Below, in pieces: positions 2,093 to 22,573 of a stretch of 33,046 nucleotides of DNA. The translations under genes and the position numbers were made by a program. Where the stretch lies: the NCBI GenBank assembly GCA_009693905.1, contig SHWG01000009.1, positions 1 to 33,046 of the forward strand, in the 5' to 3' direction. Every line of letters begins with the position of its first letter. The first letter of the stretch is position 1. The DNA comes from Rhodospirillales bacterium (GTDB lineage Bacteria > Pseudomonadota > Alphaproteobacteria > Rhodospirillales > 2-12-FULL-67-15). The notes beneath the pieces were generated by a model. The model was given only the letters and a program-made list of their open reading frames with translations. It did not search any database and was not told the origin of the DNA.

Positions 2093-4252
2093 ATGAAAAA
2101 CTTGTGGTCCGACCGGGATGCCGAGGCGTGCGTCCGCCGCTACGCCAAGGACGGCGTTTCGCGCGATCTCGCGCTCCGGGTTTACACCACCCGGCTCTTG
2201 GGCGGCGAGCCCCGCCTGGTGCTGCACGGCGGCGGCAACACCTCGGTCAAGACGCGCATGCGCGACCTCGCAGGCCAAGACGTGGACGTGCTCTGCGTCA
2301 AGGGTTCGGGCTGGGACATGGCGGCGATCGAGCCTGCGGGCCTGCCTGCGGTGCGCTTGCAGCCGCTGCTCGGCCTCTTGAAACTCAAAGTCCTTGCGGA
2401 CGAGGACATGGTCAACGTCCAGCGCGGCAATCTCCTCGATTCCGCTTCGCCCAATCCCTCGGTCGAGACCCTGTTGCACGCCTTCATCCCGCACGCTTTC
2501 ATCGACCACACCCATTCCAACGCGGTTCTGGCGCTGACCGACCAGCCGGACCCGGAGCGGCTTTGCCGCGAGGTGTACGGCGCGAAGCTGGCTTATGTGC
2601 CCTACATCATGCCCGGCTTCGCGTTGGCCAAGAAAGCCGCCGAGATTTACCGCTGCAACCCCGGGGTCGAGGGGCTGATTCTCTTGAAGCACGGCATATT
2701 CACTTTCGGGCGGACGGCCAAGGAAGCCTACGGGCGCATGATCCGCCATGTCTCGGCGGCCGAGGCGCGCATCGGCCGGGCCTCACGCCAGGTCTTCGCC
2801 GCCGGGCGCGCACGCGCCAAAAACATCAATTCGGGCGGCGATCCGAGCGCCCGATCTTTTGTTTCGGCGGTCTTCGCCGCACGGGCGCTGCCCAAAAAGA
2901 TCGCCGAGGCTTCGGACGTGGCGCCGATCTTGCGCGGCCTGCTCGCCATTCCGCTCGATCCCGAAGCGCGCGGTCCCGCCGACAGGCGGGCCAATAACGA
3001 ATGGAAACGCCTGGTGTTCGATTTCCGCGCCGGCCCGGCCGTCCGCGCGTTCGTCGCCGGCCGCGATCTCGGCCGCTACAGCCAGGCCGGCACCGCCACC
3101 CCCGATCACGTCATCCGCACCAAGCAGAAACCCTTGATCGTGCCGGCGCCGCGGGCCAGAAAGCTCGATGATTTCCGCGCCGGCGCGAGCAAGGCGCTGG
3201 AAAAATACGTCGCCGGCTACCGCGCCTATTTCGCCCGCAACAACAAACGCTTCAAGGGCGCGAAAAAAGAACTCGATCCGATTCCGCGCGTCGTCCTGGT
3301 GCCCGGACTCGGGCTGTTCGGCCTGGGCGAATCGCGCAACGCGGCCCGGATCGCCGCCGACCTCGCCGAAACCAACATCGAGGTGATCGGCAATGCCGAG
3401 GCGCTCGGGCGCTATCAGGTGATCTCCGAGCCCGACACCTTCGATATCGAATATTGGTCCTTGGAGCAGGCAAAACTAGGCCATGGCGCCGAGAAACCGC
3501 TCGCCCGGCACGTGGTCGCCGTGACCGGCGCGGGATCGGGCATCGGCGCGGCGACGGCGCGCGCGTTTGCCGCCGCCGGGGCCGAGGTGTGCGTGCTCGA
3601 TCGGGACGCGAACGCGGCCGCGAGCGTGGCCCAGGCGGTCAAGGGCCTGGCGGTCGCCTGCGACGTGACCGATCCCAAATCCGTGCGCGCGGCGTTCGCG
3701 CGCATCGCCGCGACCTACGGCGGCGTGGACATCGTGGTGTCCAACGCCGGGGCGGCCTGGCAGGGCCGGATCGGCGACGTGGACGACGCGACGTTGCGCC
3801 AAAGTTTCGAGTTGAACTTTTTCGCCCACCAGGCGGTGGCGCAAAACGCGGTGCGGATCATGCGCGCCCAAGGTCTCGGCGGCTGTCTCCTGTTCAACAC
3901 CTCGAAGCAGGCGATCAACCCGGGGCGCGACTTCGGCCCCTATGGGCTGCCCAAGGCGGCGACGTTGTTTTTGATGAAACAATATGCGCTGGATCACGGT
4001 GCCGACGGCATCCGCTCGAATGCGGTCAACGCCGACCGGATTCGTTCGGGATTATTGACCGACTCCATGATTGCGGCACGCTCCAAGGCGCGCGGCGTGA
4101 GCGAGCGGGACTACATGGCCGGCAATCTGCTCGGCCAAGAAGTGACCGCCGACGACGTGGCGCGCGAGTTCGTGGCGCTCGCGCTCGCCAAGAAAACCAC
4201 GGCGGCGATCGTCACCGTGGACGGCGGCAACATCGAGGCGAGCTTGCGCTAA
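2093..4252 (+). CDS. Bifunctional class II aldolase / short-chain dehydrogenase (RhaD-like two-domain protein)
   Basis: A 719-residue fusion. Residues about 25-240 are a class II (zinc) aldolase/adducin domain: HGGGNTS at 45-51, zinc ligands H139 and H141 in DHTHSNAV, and H200 in LLKHGIF. Residues about 470-719 are a Rossmann short-chain dehydrogenase: TGAGSGIG at 478-485, SNAG at 550-553, S604 in NTSKQ, and the catalytic Y617-x3-K621. Family members cleave a ketose-1-phosphate such as rhamnulose-1-phosphate to DHAP plus an aldehyde and oxidise the aldehyde; the sugar is not identifiable here and no other sugar genes are adjacent. An AAGGAGG at 2085-2091 is unusually close to this ATG, so the TTG at 2102 is an alternative start. 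Residues about 234-265, in the linker between domains, are encoded by the 78-bp-period repeat described separately. Confidence 0.9.
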   Translation: MKNLWSDRDAEACVRRYAKDGVSRDLALRVYTTRLLGGEPRLVLHGGGNTSVKTRMRDLAGQDVDVLCVKGSGWDMAAIEPAGLPAVRLQPLLGLLKLKVLADEDMVNVQRGNLLDSASPNPSVETLLHAFIPHAFIDHTHSNAVLALTDQPDPERLCREVYGAKLAYVPYIMPGFALAKKAAEIYRCNPGVEGLILLKHGIFTFGRTAKEAYGRMIRHVSAAEARIGRASRQVFAAGRARAKNINSGGDPSARSFVSAVFAARALPKKIAEASDVAPILRGLLAIPLDPEARGPADRRANNEWKRLVFDFRAGPAVRAFVAGRDLGRYSQAGTATPDHVIRTKQKPLIVPAPRARKLDDFRAGASKALEKYVAGYRAYFARNNKRFKGAKKELDPIPRVVLVPGLGLFGLGESRNAARIAADLAETNIEVIGNAEALGRYQVISEPDTFDIEYWSLEQAKLGHGAEKPLARHVVAVTGAGSGIGAATARAFAAAGAEVCVLDRDANAAASVAQAVKGLAVACDVTDPKSVRAAFARIAATYGGVDIVVSNAGAAWQGRIGDVDDATLRQSFELNFFAHQAVAQNAVRIMRAQGLGGCLLFNTSKQAINPGRDFGPYGLPKAATLFLMKQYALDHGADGIRSNAVNADRIRSGLLTDSMIAARSKARGVSERDYMAGNLLGQEVTADDVAREFVALALAKKTTAAIVTVDGGNIEASLR
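2793..2887 (+). repeat. Intragenic 78-bp-period element, copy A (in aldolase/SDR gene)
   Basis: The decamer TCTTCGCCGC at 2793 recurs at 2871, exactly 78 bases later. The sequence between aligns over its whole length with the copies at 9021, 10756 (minus), 12918 (minus) and 20817, including the GCGCGCACGCGCC block. It is read in frame as FAAGRARAK..., the same frame as the tandem array at 20817. An inner hairpin pairs TCGGGCG (2831-2837) perfectly with CGCCCGA (2848-2854). It falls in the poorly conserved linker between the two enzyme domains. Confidence 0.75.
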
Positions 4253-4257
4253 AAACC

Positions 4258-4280
4258 CCCTCCCCCCTTGCGGGGGAGGG
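4258..4280. repeat. Small GC-rich palindrome between genes
   Basis: CCCTCCCCC (4258-4266), loop CTTGC, GGGGGAGGG (4272-4280): a perfect 9-bp stem starting six bases after the aldolase/SDR stop. The plus-strand side is followed by more G-rich sequence rather than T's, so it is not a typical terminator in that direction. On the minus strand a run of T's does follow. Very similar short palindromes are common between genes in many GC-rich proteobacteria, so I call it a dispersed intergenic repeat. Confidence 0.55.
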
Positions 4281-4312
4281 CTGGGGTGGGGAGGCTGTTC
4301 CGCGATAAGCCC

Positions 4313-5221
4313 ATGCGTGATTCCAATCAATCGGGCTACGCGCGAAATGTCGCATCCCCACCGGCGCGCGGCCTCGACCATCTGGTGCTGGCGGTCAGCG
4401 ATCTGGAATCCGCGCGGGATTTCTACACCCGTCTCGGCTTCACCTTGACGCCGCGCGCCCGCCATCCCTTCGGCACCGACAATTCTCTGGCCCAGCTTCA
4501 AGGGAGTTTTCTCGAACTGCTGAGCGTGGCTCGGCCGGCGGAGATTCCGCCCCATGGCCCCGACCATTTCAGCTTCGCCGCCTATAACCGCGATTTTCTC
4601 GCCAGGCGCCAAGGCTTTTCCATGTTGGTCTTCGAAAGCCGGGATGCGCGCGCCGACCATGACGAGCTTCGATCCAAGGGAATACGCACCTACGCGCCGT
4701 TCAATTTCTCGCGGCCCGCCAAGTTGCCCGACGGCGCCGAGGTCACGGTGGGGTTCAGCCTTACCTTCGTCAGCGATCCCCGCTGGCCCGATTGCGCCAT
4801 GTTCGTCTGCCAGCAGCACGCGCCCGAGCATTTCTGGAAGCCCGACTTCCAGCGCCACGCCAACGGCGCGGTCGGCATCGAGGCGGTCTATATGGTCGCC
4901 GCCGACCCCATGGCGCTCGCCGGTCACTTCGCGGCGCTCCAGGGGCCGGACGCGGTCGCGCCAACCCGCGACGGACTCGACGTGGCGACCGCGCGCGGCC
5001 GGGTCCGGGTGCTAGAGCCCGCCGCCTTCGCCGCGCGCTTTCCCGGGGCCCGCATCCCCAACGCGCCGACGACGCCCTATTACGCCGGATTCCGGCTGGC
5101 GCTGGCCGAACCCGGCCGGGTCCCGGCCGCCTTGGGCGGCGTCGAATTGCGCAAAGGGGCCGGATCGCGCTGGATCGACCCGACGCAAGCGTTTGGGTGC
5201 CTGATCGAATTCGCCGCTTAG
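4313..5221 (+). CDS. VOC-superfamily protein (Glyoxalase_3-like domain)
   Basis: A 302-residue protein that opens with the vicinal-oxygen-chelate signature GLDHLVLAVSDLESARDFY, followed by LGFTLTPR and FGTDN. A second, more diverged half (from about residue 175, IEAVYMVAADP) looks like the paired VOC module. Glyoxalase_3 proteins (PF13468) have no settled reaction; the fold hosts metal-dependent isomerases, dioxygenases and lyases. The first metal ligand may be the His of DHLVL; I cannot assign the rest. An upstream TTG within the GC palindrome at 4268 is in frame but would translate a repeat, so the ATG at 4313 is preferred although its ribosome site is weak. Cytosolic. It lies 60 bases downstream of the aldolase/SDR gene on the same strand, possibly co-transcribed. 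Confidence 0.78.
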   Translation: MRDSNQSGYARNVASPPARGLDHLVLAVSDLESARDFYTRLGFTLTPRARHPFGTDNSLAQLQGSFLELLSVARPAEIPPHGPDHFSFAAYNRDFLARRQGFSMLVFESRDARADHDELRSKGIRTYAPFNFSRPAKLPDGAEVTVGFSLTFVSDPRWPDCAMFVCQQHAPEHFWKPDFQRHANGAVGIEAVYMVAADPMALAGHFAALQGPDAVAPTRDGLDVATARGRVRVLEPAAFAARFPGARIPNAPTTPYYAGFRLALAEPGRVPAALGGVELRKGAGSRWIDPTQAFGCLIEFAA

Positions 5222-5506
5222 CCGTTCCCGGGGCTCCGCCCCCTGAACCGACATCTTGACAATATTCCTATCATAGGGTATATCTTCTGTCCAAGCGATT
5301 CTTGAGTTCTTGGACAAGTGAAAAGATTTTTCCGCCCCCGCGAAACCTGTCCCCGCGCAGGCGGGGAGCGGGGGAGGCAAAAGGCGAGGAATGACGAGCG
5401 AAGATGAGCGAATCGCGTCGATTCGAGGTGGTTTCGTGGCGGATCAATGGGTTACACGCTTTTTGCCTGTGTAAACCTCCCTCCAACCCCCCGCGAAGCT
5501 TGCTCC
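5222..5506. other. Gene-free stretch with three inverted repeats
   Basis: No convincing gene in 285 bases between convergent genes. Structures seen: GGGGC-TCC-GCCCC (5230-5242) just after the VOC stop; TGTCCAAG (5288-5295) pairing with CTTGGACA (5309-5316); a nested GC hairpin with inner CCCCGC/GCGGGG (5351-5366) inside outer CCCCCGC/GCGGGGG (5335-5374); and CGAATCG-CGT-CGATTCG (5409-5425). A promoter-like site (separate entry) points into this block. The nested hairpin resembles dispersed intergenic repeats of GC-rich alphaproteobacteria. Short frames here (5271-5486 minus, 5404-5685 plus) look like accidental translations of it. Confidence 0.6.
5256..5284 (+). promoter_or_regulatory. Orphan sigma-70-like promoter with a palindromic spacer
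   Basis: TTGACA (5256-5261), exactly 17 bases, then TATATC (5279-5284). The spacer holds the palindrome CCTAT-C-ATAGG (5267-5277), placed where a repressor could sit. Predicted transcription would start near 5291, at the foot of the TGTCCAAG/CTTGGACA hairpin, and run into the gene-free block towards the 3' end of the convergent cyclophilin gene. No plus-strand protein gene follows, so the product, if any, would be a small or antisense RNA. Confidence 0.4.
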
Positions 5507-6100
5507 TCAGCGCGCCAAAATCGTCGCCTTGGTCAGCACGATCGGGGTCCGGGGCGCGTCACGATCGAACGGGCCCACCGCGCCGGTGGGGGCGGCGACC
5601 ATGCGGTCGGCGACCTCCAGGCCTTCGACCACCCGGGCGAAAACCGTGTAGCCGTGGCCGCCGGGGTGGCGCGGCCCGGCGTTGAGGAAGTGGTTGTCGG
5701 CGACGTTGACGAAAAACTGGGCGGTGGCGGAGTGCGGATCCCCGGTCCGGGCCATCGCCACCGTGCCGCGCAGATTGGGCGGTCCGCCGACGGACTCGTT
5801 TTGCACCTGGGCACCGGTCGGCTTTTGCTTGTAGTCGGGGGTGAAGCCGCCGCCCTGGGCCATGAAGCCGGGGATCACGCGGTGAAAGATGGTGCCGTTG
5901 TAAAATCCGCCGCGGACCAGGTTGAGAAAATTCTCCACCGACTTCGGCGCTTTCGTGGGATCGAGTTCGATCACGATCGCGCCGAGGCTGGTCTCGATCT
6001 GCACCCGCGGGCCCGGCTGGGCACTTTGTGCCCCAACCTCGGCCGCGCCGAAAAGCAGGGCGAGCGTGGCGACGAGGGCGATCAGGCGCTTGAGCGACAT
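5507..6100 (-). CDS. Exported cyclophilin-type peptidyl-prolyl cis-trans isomerase
   Basis: A 197-residue protein with a signal peptide (MSLKRLIALVATLALLFGAA..., cleavage likely after VGA near residue 24) and one cyclophilin domain (about 32-195). Family motifs are visible: the FHRVIPGFMAQGG catalytic loop with its arginine, the GTVAMART segment, and TAQFFVNVADN. It would catalyse proline isomerisation in the periplasm. It begins 6 bases after the cytochrome c1 stop on the same strand, so it is probably the last gene of the cytochrome bc1 operon and may help fold exported subunits; that role is inference from position. The 3' end abuts the hairpin-rich stretch at 5222-5506. Confidence 0.93.
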   Translation of the reverse strand: MSLKRLIALVATLALLFGAAEVGAQSAQPGPRVQIETSLGAIVIELDPTKAPKSVENFLNLVRGGFYNGTIFHRVIPGFMAQGGGFTPDYKQKPTGAQVQNESVGGPPNLRGTVAMARTGDPHSATAQFFVNVADNHFLNAGPRHPGGHGYTVFARVVEGLEVADRMVAAPTGAVGPFDRDAPRTPIVLTKATILAR

Positions 6101-15424: not shown

Positions 15425-18166
15425 GTGATCACCCTCGGGCCGTTCGCCTTCGCCGCGCCATGGGCGCTGCTCGGACTGTTGGCGTTGCCGGCGCTCTGGT
15501 TCCTGCTTCGCCTGATGCCGCCCGCGCCGCGCGAGGTGGTGTTCCCGCCGGTGCGGATTCTGATGGCGCTGGCGCGGCGCGATGAAACCTCCGCGACCAC
15601 GCCGCCTTGGCTGATCGCGCTTCGCTTCACGCTTGCCGCCGCCGCGATCCTCGGGCTCGCGCATCCGATCCTGAACGCCGAGCCGGGGCTGAAGGGCTCG
15701 GGTCCGCTGGTGCTGGTTCTCGACGACGGCTGGGCGGCGGCGAAAGGCTGGTCCGAACGGACGGCCGCCGCCCTGCGCCTCGCCGATCGCGCGGGGAGAG
15801 AAGGGCGCGCGGTGATGGTTTTCGGCACGGCGGCGCGCACCGAGACCCCGGCGCCGGCGCCGCTCTCCGCCGCCGCCGCGCGCCGAACGATCGAATCGAT
15901 GCGCCCGAAGCCCTGGCCCGCGGATCGCGGAGCGATCGGCCGGGCGCTCTTAGCCTGGGCCGAAGAAACCCGCTCGCCGCCGGCGCCGGTGGCGTGGCTG
16001 AGCGACGGCTTGGAAGCCGCCGAGGGGGAAGCGCGCGAATTCGTCGATAAAATCGGCCGGGTCGGCGCGGTCATGCTCGCCGAGCCCCCGCGCGAGAATT
16101 TGCCGCTCCTTCTGCGCCCGCCCCGGACCGAGGGCGATGCGCTGGCGCTTACCGCCGATCGGGCCCAAGCGGGCGCCCGGCGCGAGGTTTCCGTCATTGC
16201 CTATGGCGACGACGGCCGCCCGCTCGCGCGCGAGCAACTCGTCTTTCCCTCGGGGCGCGCGCACGGCGAAGCGCGCATGGCGCTGCCGTTGGAACTGCGC
16301 AACCGGCTCGCCCGCCTCGAAATCGAAAACGAGACGGGCGCGAACGCCGTCGCGCTTGCCGACGAACGTTGGCGCCGCCGCCCGGTCGGGCTCGCGGCCG
16401 TGGGAACGATCCAGGAGAACCAGCCCCTGCTCGGCGATCTTTACTATCTCGAGCGCGCGCTCGAGCCGTGGGCGGAAGCCCGCCGCGCGCCGATCGCCGA
16501 ACTGCTCGCGCGCGCGCTTGCGGTGCTGGTGCTCGCCGATCCCGGCCCGTTTCCGGCAACCGATGCGGCGGTGCTCGCGCGCTGGATCGAGACGGGCGGC
16601 GTCGCCGTGCGTTTTGCCGGCCCCCGACTTGCGACCGCGACCCAAAACGTCTCGGGCGAGAATCCCGATCCATTCCTGCCGGTGCGGTTGCGCGCCGGCG
16701 ACCGCGTCGTCGGCGGAGCCCTGACCTGGGAACGCCCGGTCCCGCTCGCGGCTTTCGACGACAAGAGCCCGTTCTTCGGGTTGCCGGTGTCCGCGGACGT
16801 GCGCGTGCGCCGACAGGTCCTGGCCGAACCCGCCCTCGATCTCGCCGAGCGCACCTGGGCCCGGCTCGCGGACGGCACGCCGTTGGTGACGGCGGAGCGG
16901 CGCGGGCGCGGCTGGCTGGTGCTGATCCACGTCACCGCCAACGCGCAATGGTCGGATTTGCCGCTGTCGGGTTTGTTCGTCGGGATGCTCCAGCGTCTGG
17001 TCGCGCTGAGCCAAGGCGTGGCCGGGCATCTTGCGGGTCCGCCGCTCGCGCCCGAGGCGACTCTCGACGGATTTGGCCGGCTAGGGCACCCGCCCGCGGA
17101 CGCCCAGGCCATTACCGCCGAAGCGTTCGCCGGCACGCGCGTCGGCCCGCGCCATCCGCCCGGTTTCTACGGCGAGCGCGGCGGCGTGCGCGCCCTCAAT
17201 CTCGCCGATTCGGTTCCGTTGCTGAAGGCGTTTCCGCGGCCCGTGAACGTCGAAACGATCGCTTACGGCTCGGGGATAGAGACGGACCTGCGCCCGTGGC
17301 TGCTCGGGCTCGCGTTCGTGCTTTTGCTCGCCGATCTGGTGGCGAGCCTCGCGCTCCGCGGGCTTTTGTTCCCGCGCCCGAGCGCCGCGTTCGCGCTGGC
17401 GCTGGCGCTGGCGTTCGTCCCGCCGGCGTTGGCGCAAGAGCGGCGTTCAGGCACGGTCGCGCGCAACCCGGAGGCCGTCGCGCTCGCGGCGAGCGCTGAT
17501 CCCACGCTCGCCTACATTCTCACCGGAAACCGCGAGACCGATGCAACCAGCCGCGCCGGGCTCGAAGGTCTCGGGGCCATCCTCAGGCGCCGCACCGCCG
17601 CCGAGATGGGCCCGCCGATCGGGGTCGATCCGGAGCAAGACGAGCTCAGCTTCTTCCCGCTCATCTATTGGCCGATCGAGGGCGGACAACTGCCGCTCGG
17701 CGCGGGCGCCCAGGCGCGGCTCAATACCTTCATGCGCCAGGGCGGCACGATCCTGTTCGATTCGCGTGGCGGCGAAGGCGAAAGCATCGCGGCCTTGCGC
17801 GCGCTCGCCCGCCAGCTCGATCTCCCGGCGCTGGAACCGGTCGGGCCCGATCACGTGCTGACGCGCACGTTCTATCTGTTGCAGGAATTTCCCGGCCGCT
17901 ATCCCGGCGGGCGGTTGTGGGCCGAGCGGGCGGGCGAGCGCGTCAACGACGGCGTGTCTTCGGTCATCGTAGGCGGCGGCGACTGGGCGGCGGCCTGGGC
18001 GGTGGACGACGCGCACCGGCCGCTCTTTCCGGTCGTTCCCGGGGGCGAGCGCCAGCGCGAGTACGCCTACCGCTTCGGCGTCAACGTGGTGATGTACGTG
18101 CTGACCGGCAATTACAAATCGGACCAAGTCCACGTTCCGGCGATCATGCAGAGGTTGCGCCGATGA
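15425..18166 (+). CDS. BatA-type / DUF4159 membrane protein
   Basis: 913 residues. The N-terminus matches the BatA (Aerotolerance regulator N-terminal) pattern: helix PWALLGLLALPALWFLLRL, then PPREVVFPPVRIL-like sequence and a second helix near residues 60-75. A VWA-like/amidotransferase-like middle follows (LVLVLDDGWAAAKGW). Around residues 620-675 are two more hydrophobic segments, the second ending PPALAQ like an internal signal sequence. Residues about 690-913 are DUF4159 (LAYILTGNRETD, ELSFFPLIYWPI, GGTILFDSRGG, GVNVVMYVLTGNYKSDQVH). Such fusions of about 920 residues accompany moxR/DUF58 in alphaproteobacteria; their role is not known. The start is a GTG one base after the DUF58 stop, so translation is probably coupled. 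Confidence 0.87.
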   Translation: MITLGPFAFAAPWALLGLLALPALWFLLRLMPPAPREVVFPPVRILMALARRDETSATTPPWLIALRFTLAAAAILGLAHPILNAEPGLKGSGPLVLVLDDGWAAAKGWSERTAAALRLADRAGREGRAVMVFGTAARTETPAPAPLSAAAARRTIESMRPKPWPADRGAIGRALLAWAEETRSPPAPVAWLSDGLEAAEGEAREFVDKIGRVGAVMLAEPPRENLPLLLRPPRTEGDALALTADRAQAGARREVSVIAYGDDGRPLAREQLVFPSGRAHGEARMALPLELRNRLARLEIENETGANAVALADERWRRRPVGLAAVGTIQENQPLLGDLYYLERALEPWAEARRAPIAELLARALAVLVLADPGPFPATDAAVLARWIETGGVAVRFAGPRLATATQNVSGENPDPFLPVRLRAGDRVVGGALTWERPVPLAAFDDKSPFFGLPVSADVRVRRQVLAEPALDLAERTWARLADGTPLVTAERRGRGWLVLIHVTANAQWSDLPLSGLFVGMLQRLVALSQGVAGHLAGPPLAPEATLDGFGRLGHPPADAQAITAEAFAGTRVGPRHPPGFYGERGGVRALNLADSVPLLKAFPRPVNVETIAYGSGIETDLRPWLLGLAFVLLLADLVASLALRGLLFPRPSAAFALALALAFVPPALAQERRSGTVARNPEAVALAASADPTLAYILTGNRETDATSRAGLEGLGAILRRRTAAEMGPPIGVDPEQDELSFFPLIYWPIEGGQLPLGAGAQARLNTFMRQGGTILFDSRGGEGESIAALRALARQLDLPALEPVGPDHVLTRTFYLLQEFPGRYPGGRLWAERAGERVNDGVSSVIVGGGDWAAAWAVDDAHRPLFPVVPGGERQREYAYRFGVNVVMYVLTGNYKSDQVHVPAIMQRLRR

Positions 18167-20749: not shown

Positions 20750-21775
20750 ATGAACAGGGCACGGCAAATAGCGTGGGCGTTGCTGTGGGCGCGGGCGTGC
20801 GGGGCGCTGTCGGTGTCCCTGCCTTTTGTCTTGGCGGCCTTCGCCGCCGGGCGCGCACGCGCCAAAATCCAAAGACTCGGCGGCGTTCTTCGCGCCCTGC
20901 CTTTTGTCTTGGCGGCCTTCGCCGCCGGGCGCGCACGCGCCAAAATCCAAAGACTCGGCGGCGTTCTTCGCGCCCTGCCTTTTGTCTTGGCGGCCTTCGC
21001 CGCCGGGGCCGCCGAGCCGGAGAGCGTCGATCTCGAGCTCGTTCTCGCCATCGACGTTTCGGGCAGCATCGATCCCGAGGAGGCGGCGTTGCAACGCCGC
21101 GGTTACGTCGGCGCCCTCCAGGACGAGCGCGTGATCAACGCGATCAAAGCCGGCTTTCACGGCCGCATCGGTGTCACCTATTTCGAATGGGCGGGCATCC
21201 ACCACCGGCGCACGGTCGCCGACTGGGCCACGATCGGCGACGCGGCGTCGGCCCGTGCGTTCGCCGACTGGATCGAGGCGCAAGCCATCGGCGCCGGGGC
21301 GTGGACCTCGATCTCGGGCGCGATCGAATTCGCGCTCCAGCGCTTCGCCGACAGCCCCTACAAGAGCCGGCGCCGCGTGCTCGACATTTCCGGCGACGGA
21401 CCCAATAACAACGGCCCCTTCGTGGTCGAATGGCGCGACCGGGCGCTGGCGCAAGGAATCATCATCAACGGGTTGCCGATCGTCAACGATCGGCCGAGCC
21501 GCTGGGGCCTGCCGCCGTTTCTCGACCTCGACCTCTATTTCGAGGACTGTGTCATCGGCGGGCGCGGCGCGTTCATCGTGGTGGCGAAAAATTTTGCCGA
21601 CTTCGCCTCGGCGATTCGCCGCAAGCTGATCCTGGAGATCGCGGATTTGCACCCGTCGCAAGCGGGGCGTCTCGTTCCCGCGGCCGAACACATCCGCCCG
21701 CGCGGGCGCTCAGGTCCCCGTCCGCCGTGCGACTCCGGCGAACAGGAACGCATGCAACGCCGGATCGACCGCTGA
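20750..21775 (+). CDS. Secreted DUF1194 (VWA-like) protein with a tandem repeat in its signal-peptide region
   Basis: 341 residues from the ATG at 20750; an ATG at 20717 would add 11. From residue 92 on it is a DUF1194 domain: VDLELVLAIDVSGSID with the MIDAS motif DVSGS (102-106), RRGYVGAL, YFEWAG, DWATIGD, SISGAIEFAL, VLDISGDGPNN, GLPIVNDR and FEDCVIGGRGAF. The family is found in alphaproteobacteria and has no known function; the MIDAS suggests metal-dependent protein binding outside the cytoplasm. The hydrophobic leader (about 6-34) is followed by a perfect 26-residue repeat (24-49, 50-75, partial 76-86) carrying basic stretches RARAK and LPFVLAAFAAG. So there are three hydrophobic, signal-like cores before the mature protein. 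A second DUF1194 gene follows 10 bases downstream. Confidence 0.88.
   Translation: MNRARQIAWALLWARACGALSVSLPFVLAAFAAGRARAKIQRLGGVLRALPFVLAAFAAGRARAKIQRLGGVLRALPFVLAAFAAGAAEPESVDLELVLAIDVSGSIDPEEAALQRRGYVGALQDERVINAIKAGFHGRIGVTYFEWAGIHHRRTVADWATIGDAASARAFADWIEAQAIGAGAWTSISGAIEFALQRFADSPYKSRRRVLDISGDGPNNNGPFVVEWRDRALAQGIIINGLPIVNDRPSRWGLPPFLDLDLYFEDCVIGGRGAFIVVAKNFADFASAIRRKLILEIADLHPSQAGRLVPAAEHIRPRGRSGPRPPCDSGEQERMQRRIDR
20817..21007 (+). repeat. Intragenic 78-bp element, locus E: perfect tandem array of 2.4 copies
   Basis: Units begin (CCCTGCC) at 20817, 20895 and 20973; the first two are identical over all 78 bases and the third stops after about 35. Each unit has GGCGGC-CTTC-GCCGCC followed by GGCGCG-CA-CGCGCC, two adjacent hairpins. 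No stop codon occurs in any of the six frames. It is read as LPFVLAAFAAG...RARAKIQRLGGVLRA in the host protein, the same frame as copy A. Confidence 0.92.
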
Positions 21776-21785
21776 AGGAAAATCC

Positions 21786-22573
21786 ATGGGCATCCGGGGA
21801 ATTCGGGTTGCGGCGTGGGTGTTCGCAGGCTTGGCGGTGCTTAGCGCGGCCGCGCCCCGGGCGGAGCTCGCGGGCTTAACCCCGCGCGCAGTATTAGATA
21901 CTGCGCTCCTATCGGGGCGCGCCGAAATTCCGGTCGATCTCGAGCTGGTGCTCGCCGCCGACGGTTCCGGCTCGATCGACGACGAGGAATTGAAGTTCCA
22001 GCGCCACGGCTACGCCGAGGCGCTGGCGCATCCGCGCGTGCTGGCGGCGATCCAGTCGGGTTTCCACAAGACGATCGCGGTCGCCTACATCGAGTGGGCG
22101 CGCCCCAGTCCCAGCACATCATCGCCGACTGGACGGTGATCCGCGACGAAGCCTCGGCCCGGGCCTTCGGCGCGACGCTGATCGGCACCCCGCGCGCCGC
22201 CTGGGGCTACAACTCGATCTCCAACGCCATCGCTTTTTCCGCCCACCTGATCGAAACCAACGCCTACAAGGGCACCCGGCGGGTCATCGATGTCTCGGGC
22301 GACGGGCCGCAGATCGGCGGTCGGCCCCTGGAAGAGGTCCGGCGCGAGACGGTTGCCCAAGGCATCACCATCAACGCCCTGGTGATCGAGACCTCGGCCG
22401 GGAGCCTGCGCGGCCCCGGGGGCATTTCGCTCGTCGAGCATTACGAGCGCGATGTCATCGGCGGCGCCGGCGCCTTCATCGCGGTCGCGCGCGAGCGCGG
22501 CCGATTCTCCGAGACGGTCCTCAAGAAGCTTGTGCTGGAGATCGCGGGCGTGGGAGAAACGGCGAACCCATGA
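21786..22573 (+). pseudogene. Second DUF1194 protein, frameshifted
   Basis: Paralogue of the preceding gene. Frame 1 (21786-22139) encodes a signal peptide (RVAAWVFAGLAVLSAAAPRAE), a repeat-derived segment (residues about 28-47), the MIDAS region VDLELVLAADGSGSID and AYIEWA. The rest (DWTVIRDEASARAF, SISNAIAFSAHL, VIDVSGDGPQ, YERDVIGGAGAF) reads in the +2 frame up to 22573. The total length is one base short of a codon multiple. One extra base near 22097-22101, just before or within GCGCGCCCC, would join the halves as EWGAPQSQHIIADW, giving about 262 residues. Real loss or an assembly deletion; the remaining sequence shows no other damage. The stop overlaps the GST start. Confidence 0.85.
21862..21926 (+). 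repeat. Second dispersed element (about 60 bp), copy 2, behind a signal peptide
   Basis: Shares the core CGCGGGCTTAACCCCGCG and flanking blocks with 12100-12160. It is read in frame as LAGLTPRAVLDTALLSGRAE (20 codons), placed between the signal peptide ending PRAE and the first DUF1194 strand IPVDLELV. The peptide before and after the inserted segment is RAE in both places. The sense orientation is opposite to that of the Nudix copy. Confidence 0.7.

Follow-up and report, generated by a model that had tools for sequence, protein, structure and literature searches.

We propose that positions 5256-5490 of the window (the whole stretch of DNA analyzed, 33,046 nucleotides from a Rhodospirillales bacterium) are a solo and non-coding copy within a dispersed family linked to terS, a gene for a phage-type terminase small subunit, and that the distal module of this element is probably a binding site for an orphan TerS protein. 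We hold this reading with somewhat better than even confidence. At the level of sequence, promoter, operator, leader, filler and module recur as a set, modules adjoin terS genes, CCTA/TAGG sites occur at both solo and terS promoters, and sites are kept among species. The one coding member found in each genome of the genus appears to be an orphan phage-type TerS gene. This suggests that the host keeps a domesticated packaging protein and a set of matching DNA sites.

The element lies between the 3' ends of two convergent genes. One ends at 5221 on the plus strand and is probably glyoxalase/VOC-like; the other ends at 5507 on the minus strand and is presumably a cyclophilin, as the preliminary description also named it. 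The parts of the window copy, in the order in which they recur in the family, are as follows.

5256-5284, plus strand: promoter-like site TTGACA-N17-TATATC (TTGACA 5256-5261, 17-nt spacer 5262-5278, TATATC 5279-5284); top match of the window at 10/12, kept in 10 further aligned copies
5267-5277, plus strand: operator-like palindrome CCTAT-C-ATAGG in the spacer; from the genome pattern count, TTCCTA and the sites at terS promoters
5306-5323, plus strand: leader motif GTTCTTGGACAAGTGAAA; from its near-invariance and fixed distance from TTGACA
5324-5392, plus strand: variable filler with a GC-rich palindrome; filler is at background identity in orthologous pairs
5393-5412, plus strand: two 10-bp direct repeats, GACGAGCGAA GATGAGCGAA, type B; from alignment of type B copies and classification
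5431-5467, plus strand: module core GTTTCGTGGCGGATCAATGGGTTACACGCTTTTTGCC; from identity to the consensus core and a match to model R1
5473-5494, plus strand: C-rich repetitive tail AAACCTCCCTCCAACCCCCC; from alignment of type B copies

The preliminary description had reported an orphan promoter with a repressor-like palindrome, among the best matches in the window. Both motifs were found exactly where it placed them, and in a scan of both strands the promoter ranked first, with runners-up at 9/12. No plausible protein gene follows on its strand, and the cyclophilin gene is convergent. A stock promoter scanner omitted the site because it requires T at the sixth -10 position, where the window copy has C; other copies have -10 elements such as TATAGT and TATATT. 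The promoter is conserved, probably regulated, and retained in relatives. The span first assigned to the feature, 5256-5425, is right for the promoter part but too short at its 3' limit, beyond which the conserved distal module (about 5393-5490) extends. We also considered a conserved small peptide, encoded in a module frame reading V-S-x-x-I-N-G-L or in an ORF from GTGAATA. This was rejected because the frames vary among copies, as compared by eye, and because the module, taken as DNA, aligns with almost constant spacing.

An alignment of eleven copies reads TTGACA..ATTCCTATnATAGGGTATA..TTT, about 20 nt, and then the leader GTTCTTGGACAAGTGAATA. In this alignment (A1) TTCCTA is invariant and TTCTTGGA.A.GTG of the leader nearly so. 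In 11 of the 13 copies checked, the distance from TTGACA to the start of the leader is 47-50 nt; in one exception (L007) the leader lies 122 nt away, beyond an inserted GC palindrome, and in the other (L005) no leader was found. The L007 insert (G000:C109), between operator and leader, is GC-rich and palindromic, about 65-70 bp long (TTCGCCCGCCGAAGCGG..GGCGGGCTTCGCGAAGG), and similar palindromes recur in the same genome.

The distal module consists of two 10-bp direct repeats, a short spacer, a 37-bp core (GTTTCGAGCGATATCAACGGGTTAAGCCCGTTTTACC) and, last, a tail made up of short repeats. Two types were distinguished: type A, in which the repeats are AATGCCTACA or AATGTTGACA and the tail is often of the CGGTGCAAG type; and type B, to which the window copy belongs, with GATGAGCGAW repeats and a AACCCCCTCC tail. 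The window core is identical to the consensus core at 26 of 37 positions, and 845 kb of shuffled sequence held no match of 23 or more. R1, a sequence-only model of the module core built from 18 copies, matches the window at 5397-5481 (59.1 bits, E 4.2e-16), this copy being part of its training set. The module type at one site, 3' of a GTPase gene, is B in G000 (C109) and A in G002 (C62).

The genus is represented by three genomes, two of them incomplete: the source genome (G000; 1.91 Mb, 82% complete), G001 and G002. Searching G000 at the DNA level returned 13 places, several of which are the GC palindrome alone. The promoter pattern TTGACANNNTNCCTATNATAGG with at most three mismatches gave five matches in the same genome, and its backward control none. 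The stretch was found in 6 of 100 relatives, the source genome counted, its promoter part in the genus only. A pattern scan of contigs found three copies in Rhodospirillales bacterium RIFCSPLOWO2_12_FULL_67_15, which coincide with those of G001; a fourth match, in a Clostridiales MAG contig (L050), was taken as chance, and viral contigs gave no match. R1 located 40 places in the genus at E ≤0.05, training copies included (14 in G000, 11 in G001 and 15 in G002), and 34 of these fell below 1e-12. Stretches found with a promoter model, R2, numbered 5, 7 and 10, respectively, some being pieces of a single site. A clear promoter (at least 23 of 30 positions) stands within 420 nt upstream of 15 of the 40 modules, a count in which two sites had too little upstream sequence. 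Six further modules have a weaker promoter, at 19-22 of 30, apparently of a second class, TTGANA..ATAGGATATAT, which comes without the leader (G000_C51, G000_C21, G001_C19, G001_C160, G002_C22 and G002_C30). R1 matched 11 of 297 genomes of the order at 1e-4, or 8 of 294 outside the genus; among 385 genomes drawn from the class, the source genome alone had a match.

The link to terS appears in a genome of another family, G009. There, one module comes directly after an intact ORF (121 aa, counted from the chosen start) whose product matches Terminase_2 (1.9e-18) and the terminase small subunit family phrog_51 (5.5e-16), and the 10-bp repeats overlap the 3' end of the ORF. With this TerS as query and a cut-off of E 1e-6, 42 of the order's 297 genomes gave a homologue, and each genome of the genus exactly one (3/3). 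All three stand directly upstream of an R1 module on the same strand, and all three products contain Terminase_2 according to Pfam.

G000, contig C91: terS 4225-4512, module 4665-4748, same strand; from the G009 TerS search and R1
G002, contig C37: terS 16900-17196, module 16598-16681, same strand; from the G009 TerS search and R1
G001, contig C39: terS 21756-22049, module 21483-21562, same strand; weak match, E 9.7e-5

In G000, the module begins at the terS stop codon. A Terminase_2 protein beside repeats, the mark of a phage terS/pac locus, is found in the genus, and the window copy itself has none. A counterpoint is that the window copy is type B, while the terS genes of G000 and G002 carry type A modules; a type B module, a weak one, follows terS in G001 only. 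Across the order, the two features tend to co-occur: terS was found in 8 of 11 module-bearing genomes versus 42 of 297 overall and, with the genus set aside, in 5 of 8 versus 39 of 294 (hypergeometric, 0.0013); the search gave no match in module-bearing G016, G064 and G176. Among 30 terS loci sampled in the order, the 3' end was located at 25 and not at five. A 10- or 11-bp periodicity (at least 15/22) was present at 11 of the 25 versus 2.4% of 593 control windows, and such strong periodicity was missing at the other 14.

The terS genes of the genus appear to be orphans. Pfam matches among the flanking ORFs include uvrB (G000 and G002), an HTH_3 protein (G000) and a glycosyltransferase (G001), with an O-methyltransferase, a PIN/Phd pair and ATP synthase in G002; the G009 gene is flanked by ribosomal proteins S6, S18 and L9, DnaB, alanine racemase and others. 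We note that terS is convergent with uvrB in G000 and G002 (L168 and L169), and that in G001 it lies elsewhere, near the glycosyltransferase. Neither the large terminase nor the structural genes of a phage terS/pac cassette were found: no phage family was recognized among the 20 ORFs flanking terS, four of which had no match at 1e-5, and the large terminase family PF03237 (Terminase_6N, the sole family searched) was found in none of the three genus genomes, two of them incomplete, compared with 6 of 14 control rings. No TerS homologue in phages exceeds 43% identity, and phage and plasmid collections hold distant ones only. A phage origin of the repeats was rejected, since TerS relatives on viral contigs (23 loci, identical 3' ends displayed once) showed no AATGNNGACA repeats by eye. 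Large plasmids of Skermanella mucosa and S. rosea (L189 and L190) carry lone annotated terminase small subunit genes without repeats.

Solo copies and terS genes also seem to share control sequences. The promoter regions of terS (TTGATACGATCCTATAACTATGTTTATAATCCTTTGATAGGTC in G000, TTGACAATTTGTCCTAATTATGTAAATATACCTATTATTAGGTCC in G002 and TTGATATATTCCTATAAATATGTTTAATATCCTAAATAAGGTCC in G001) have CCTA-type half sites in the spacer, as the solo copies do, and a CCTA..TAGG-like site after the -10 element that is degenerate in G001, both as compared by eye. The fifth of the genome-wide promoter-pattern matches is this second terS site, read on the other strand and located just ahead of the terS start codon. 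We considered LexA as the regulator of the window copy by way of GTTC-N7-GTTC, the alphaproteobacterial LexA box. This was rejected because no box, the relaxed RTTC-N7-RTTC included, occurs at any of 20 genus loci, though both genus lexA loci read have GAAC-N7-GAAC. In other families, the strict box lies upstream of 4 of 12 modules; in G009, the relaxed form lies upstream of 7 of 9, six of them at the promoter by eye.

From the flanking proteins, eight orthologous sets of element sites could be identified across the species, and the terS site is one of them; another example lies 3' of the GTPase gene (L007 and L042), presumably der. Orthologous modules are 58-84% identical (most 65-84%, three pairs 58-60%), compared with averages of 67.3% for non-orthologous modules (620 pairs) and 55.9% for shuffled ones. 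Orthologous promoters are 64-79% identical in the three pairs having both, and fillers 57-63% against an all-pairs background of 57.3%. Promoter and module thus mostly stay close to a consensus as the filler drifts, a pattern that points to function and not to strict site-by-site conservation. At the window's own site, G001 has the promoter and leader 3' of cyclophilin, followed by a run of N that hides the module. In G002, both the VOC-like gene and the element are missing, and a few bases separate the cyclophilin stop from the convergent stop that comes next.

The preliminary description had suggested that the region could be a small regulated RNA or an antisense RNA, with hairpins. The arms TGTCCAAG/CTTGGACA (5288-5295 and 5309-5316) and CGAATCG-CGT-CGATTCG (5409-5425) are present as sequence, but RNA 5291-5490 folds no better than shuffled sequence (z = -0.64; 50 of 200 shuffles equal or better). 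In the 10 other aligned copies, the promoter recurs and the TGTCCAAG arm is missing; the hairpins are peculiar to the window copy. RNAalifold gave no well-supported consensus fold: no pairs on alignment A4, eight on A1 without compensatory changes, and eight on A3 with two. Conserved RNA secondary structure, which would mark a structured small RNA or antisense RNA gene, is thus not found, and an Rfam search returned no match to the stretch. The promoter motif is a genuine and conserved feature; the hairpins appear by accident of this copy, and a small RNA defined by them is not supported. An antisense RNA specific to the cyclophilin and bc1 transcript is unlikely because other copies adjoin unrelated genes and the G002 site is empty. 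Elsewhere in the window, a glycine riboswitch (RF00504, 27866-27969, minus strand) scored 56.8 bits, exceeding its gathering score, and a tRNA search of the window found none.

One alternative is a multicopy family of regulated small RNAs, with the leader GUUCUUGGACAAGUGAAUA as functional seed and the module as 3' part of the transcript. In its favor, the leader is second only to the promoter in conservation and lies beyond the predicted start, other families show by eye a related leader that ends in GTGAATA, and the promoter is retained at orthologous places. We nevertheless judge this unlikely: the filler varies in length and sequence, modules exist without this promoter and behind terS, and the lack of a consensus fold, of stability beyond shuffles and of an Rfam family weighs here too. 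Alternatively, the copies may be passive, MITE-like debris of a terS-bearing mobile element that spread long ago and is now functionless. This would fit dispersed copies with conserved ends and variable interiors, the inserted palindromes in some of them, the absence of the element from the window's site in G002, and the presence in G009 of one terS copy that is intact and another with an internal deletion. However, promoter and module of most orthologous pairs are above background with the filler at background, a contrast that debris would not show; the element has no transposase-like gene, and we noticed no terminal inverted repeats. We regard debris as quite unlikely. There is almost no chance that the feature is a fortuitous promoter-like match near ordinary GC-rich hairpins. 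The hairpins alone would agree with that, being no better than shuffles, but promoter, leader and module recur jointly in three species, and for promoter and module the repeat family already refutes it.

Returning to the terS-linked reading, we infer that solo copies descend from a terS gene whose reading frame was lost. The TerS-like protein, with a helix-turn-helix and probably a ring, would bind the helically phased 10-bp repeats, as has been proposed for phage TerS proteins at pac. A single repressor may co-regulate terS and the solo promoters, a role that LexA seems to fill in some related families. Binding could form a nucleoprotein site, regulate locally, or mark DNA for packaging by a helper; we favor a regulatory or structural site because the large terminase was not found. 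We tentatively extend this to a possible, though not probable, system in which a domesticated TerS keeps chromosome-wide pac-like sites, many with a promoter under the terS operator (LexA in some relatives). Stress would jointly switch on the protein and transcription toward its sites, and the complexes would mark host DNA for packaging by helper phages or serve as a nucleoprotein system induced by stress.

Initiators of packaging are familiar as components of phages, and SaPI/PICI phage satellites carry a terS of their own. The satellites resemble the present system in that terS is separate from other packaging genes, and relatives here have LexA-type boxes; unlike them, it shows no recognized integrase or satellite genes among the tested neighbors and has gene-free solo copies. 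The REPIN/RAYT systems of Pseudomonas and others are dispersed non-coding repeats tied to a single-copy gene and long kept in a lineage. Here, in contrast, the putative partner is a TerS-like DNA-binding protein and not a transposase, and the repeats are direct arrays with a promoter where REPINs are palindromes. Work on REPIN/RAYT repeats includes PMC3116915 and PMC8049555. In the phage cassettes of SPP1 and SF6, as here, a Terminase_2 protein goes with direct repeats adjoining its gene. PMC4737164 places three sets of direct repeats of SPP1 pac across the terS promoters and gene start, whereas the repeats here are at the terS 3' end, with no large terminase (PF03237) or other phage gene recognized nearby and a dozen or so solo site copies per genome. 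The same article, the nearest TerS structure paper, reports no sequence preference for isolated SF6 TerS domains, and PMC9611059 calls TerS-DNA recognition unclear and controversial. The small terminase of the Rhodobacter capsulatus gene transfer agent RcGTA (PMC6854486) is likewise a TerS encoded in an alphaproteobacterial chromosome; in the three genus genomes, by contrast, no PF03237 large terminase was found, and repeated sites stand beside the gene.

A literature search found no paper on an orphan terS with dispersed repeats, which is weak evidence, as most subscription journals and preprints lay outside it. If our reading is true, an orphan single-copy terS with a dozen or so resembling sites per genome, under a similar operator, would be a new route of a virus gene into the host chromosome, and the repeats a new class of dispersed bacterial repeat with a partner other than a transposase. 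The 40 natural places in three species, with their matching proteins, offer a test system for TerS-DNA recognition. Long 11-bp tandem arrays were also seen at two further loci, one ACGACATTAGG-like and downstream of a module (L105, G185:C115), the other GACGACTTGGG-like and downstream of a terS gene (L146, G220:C88).
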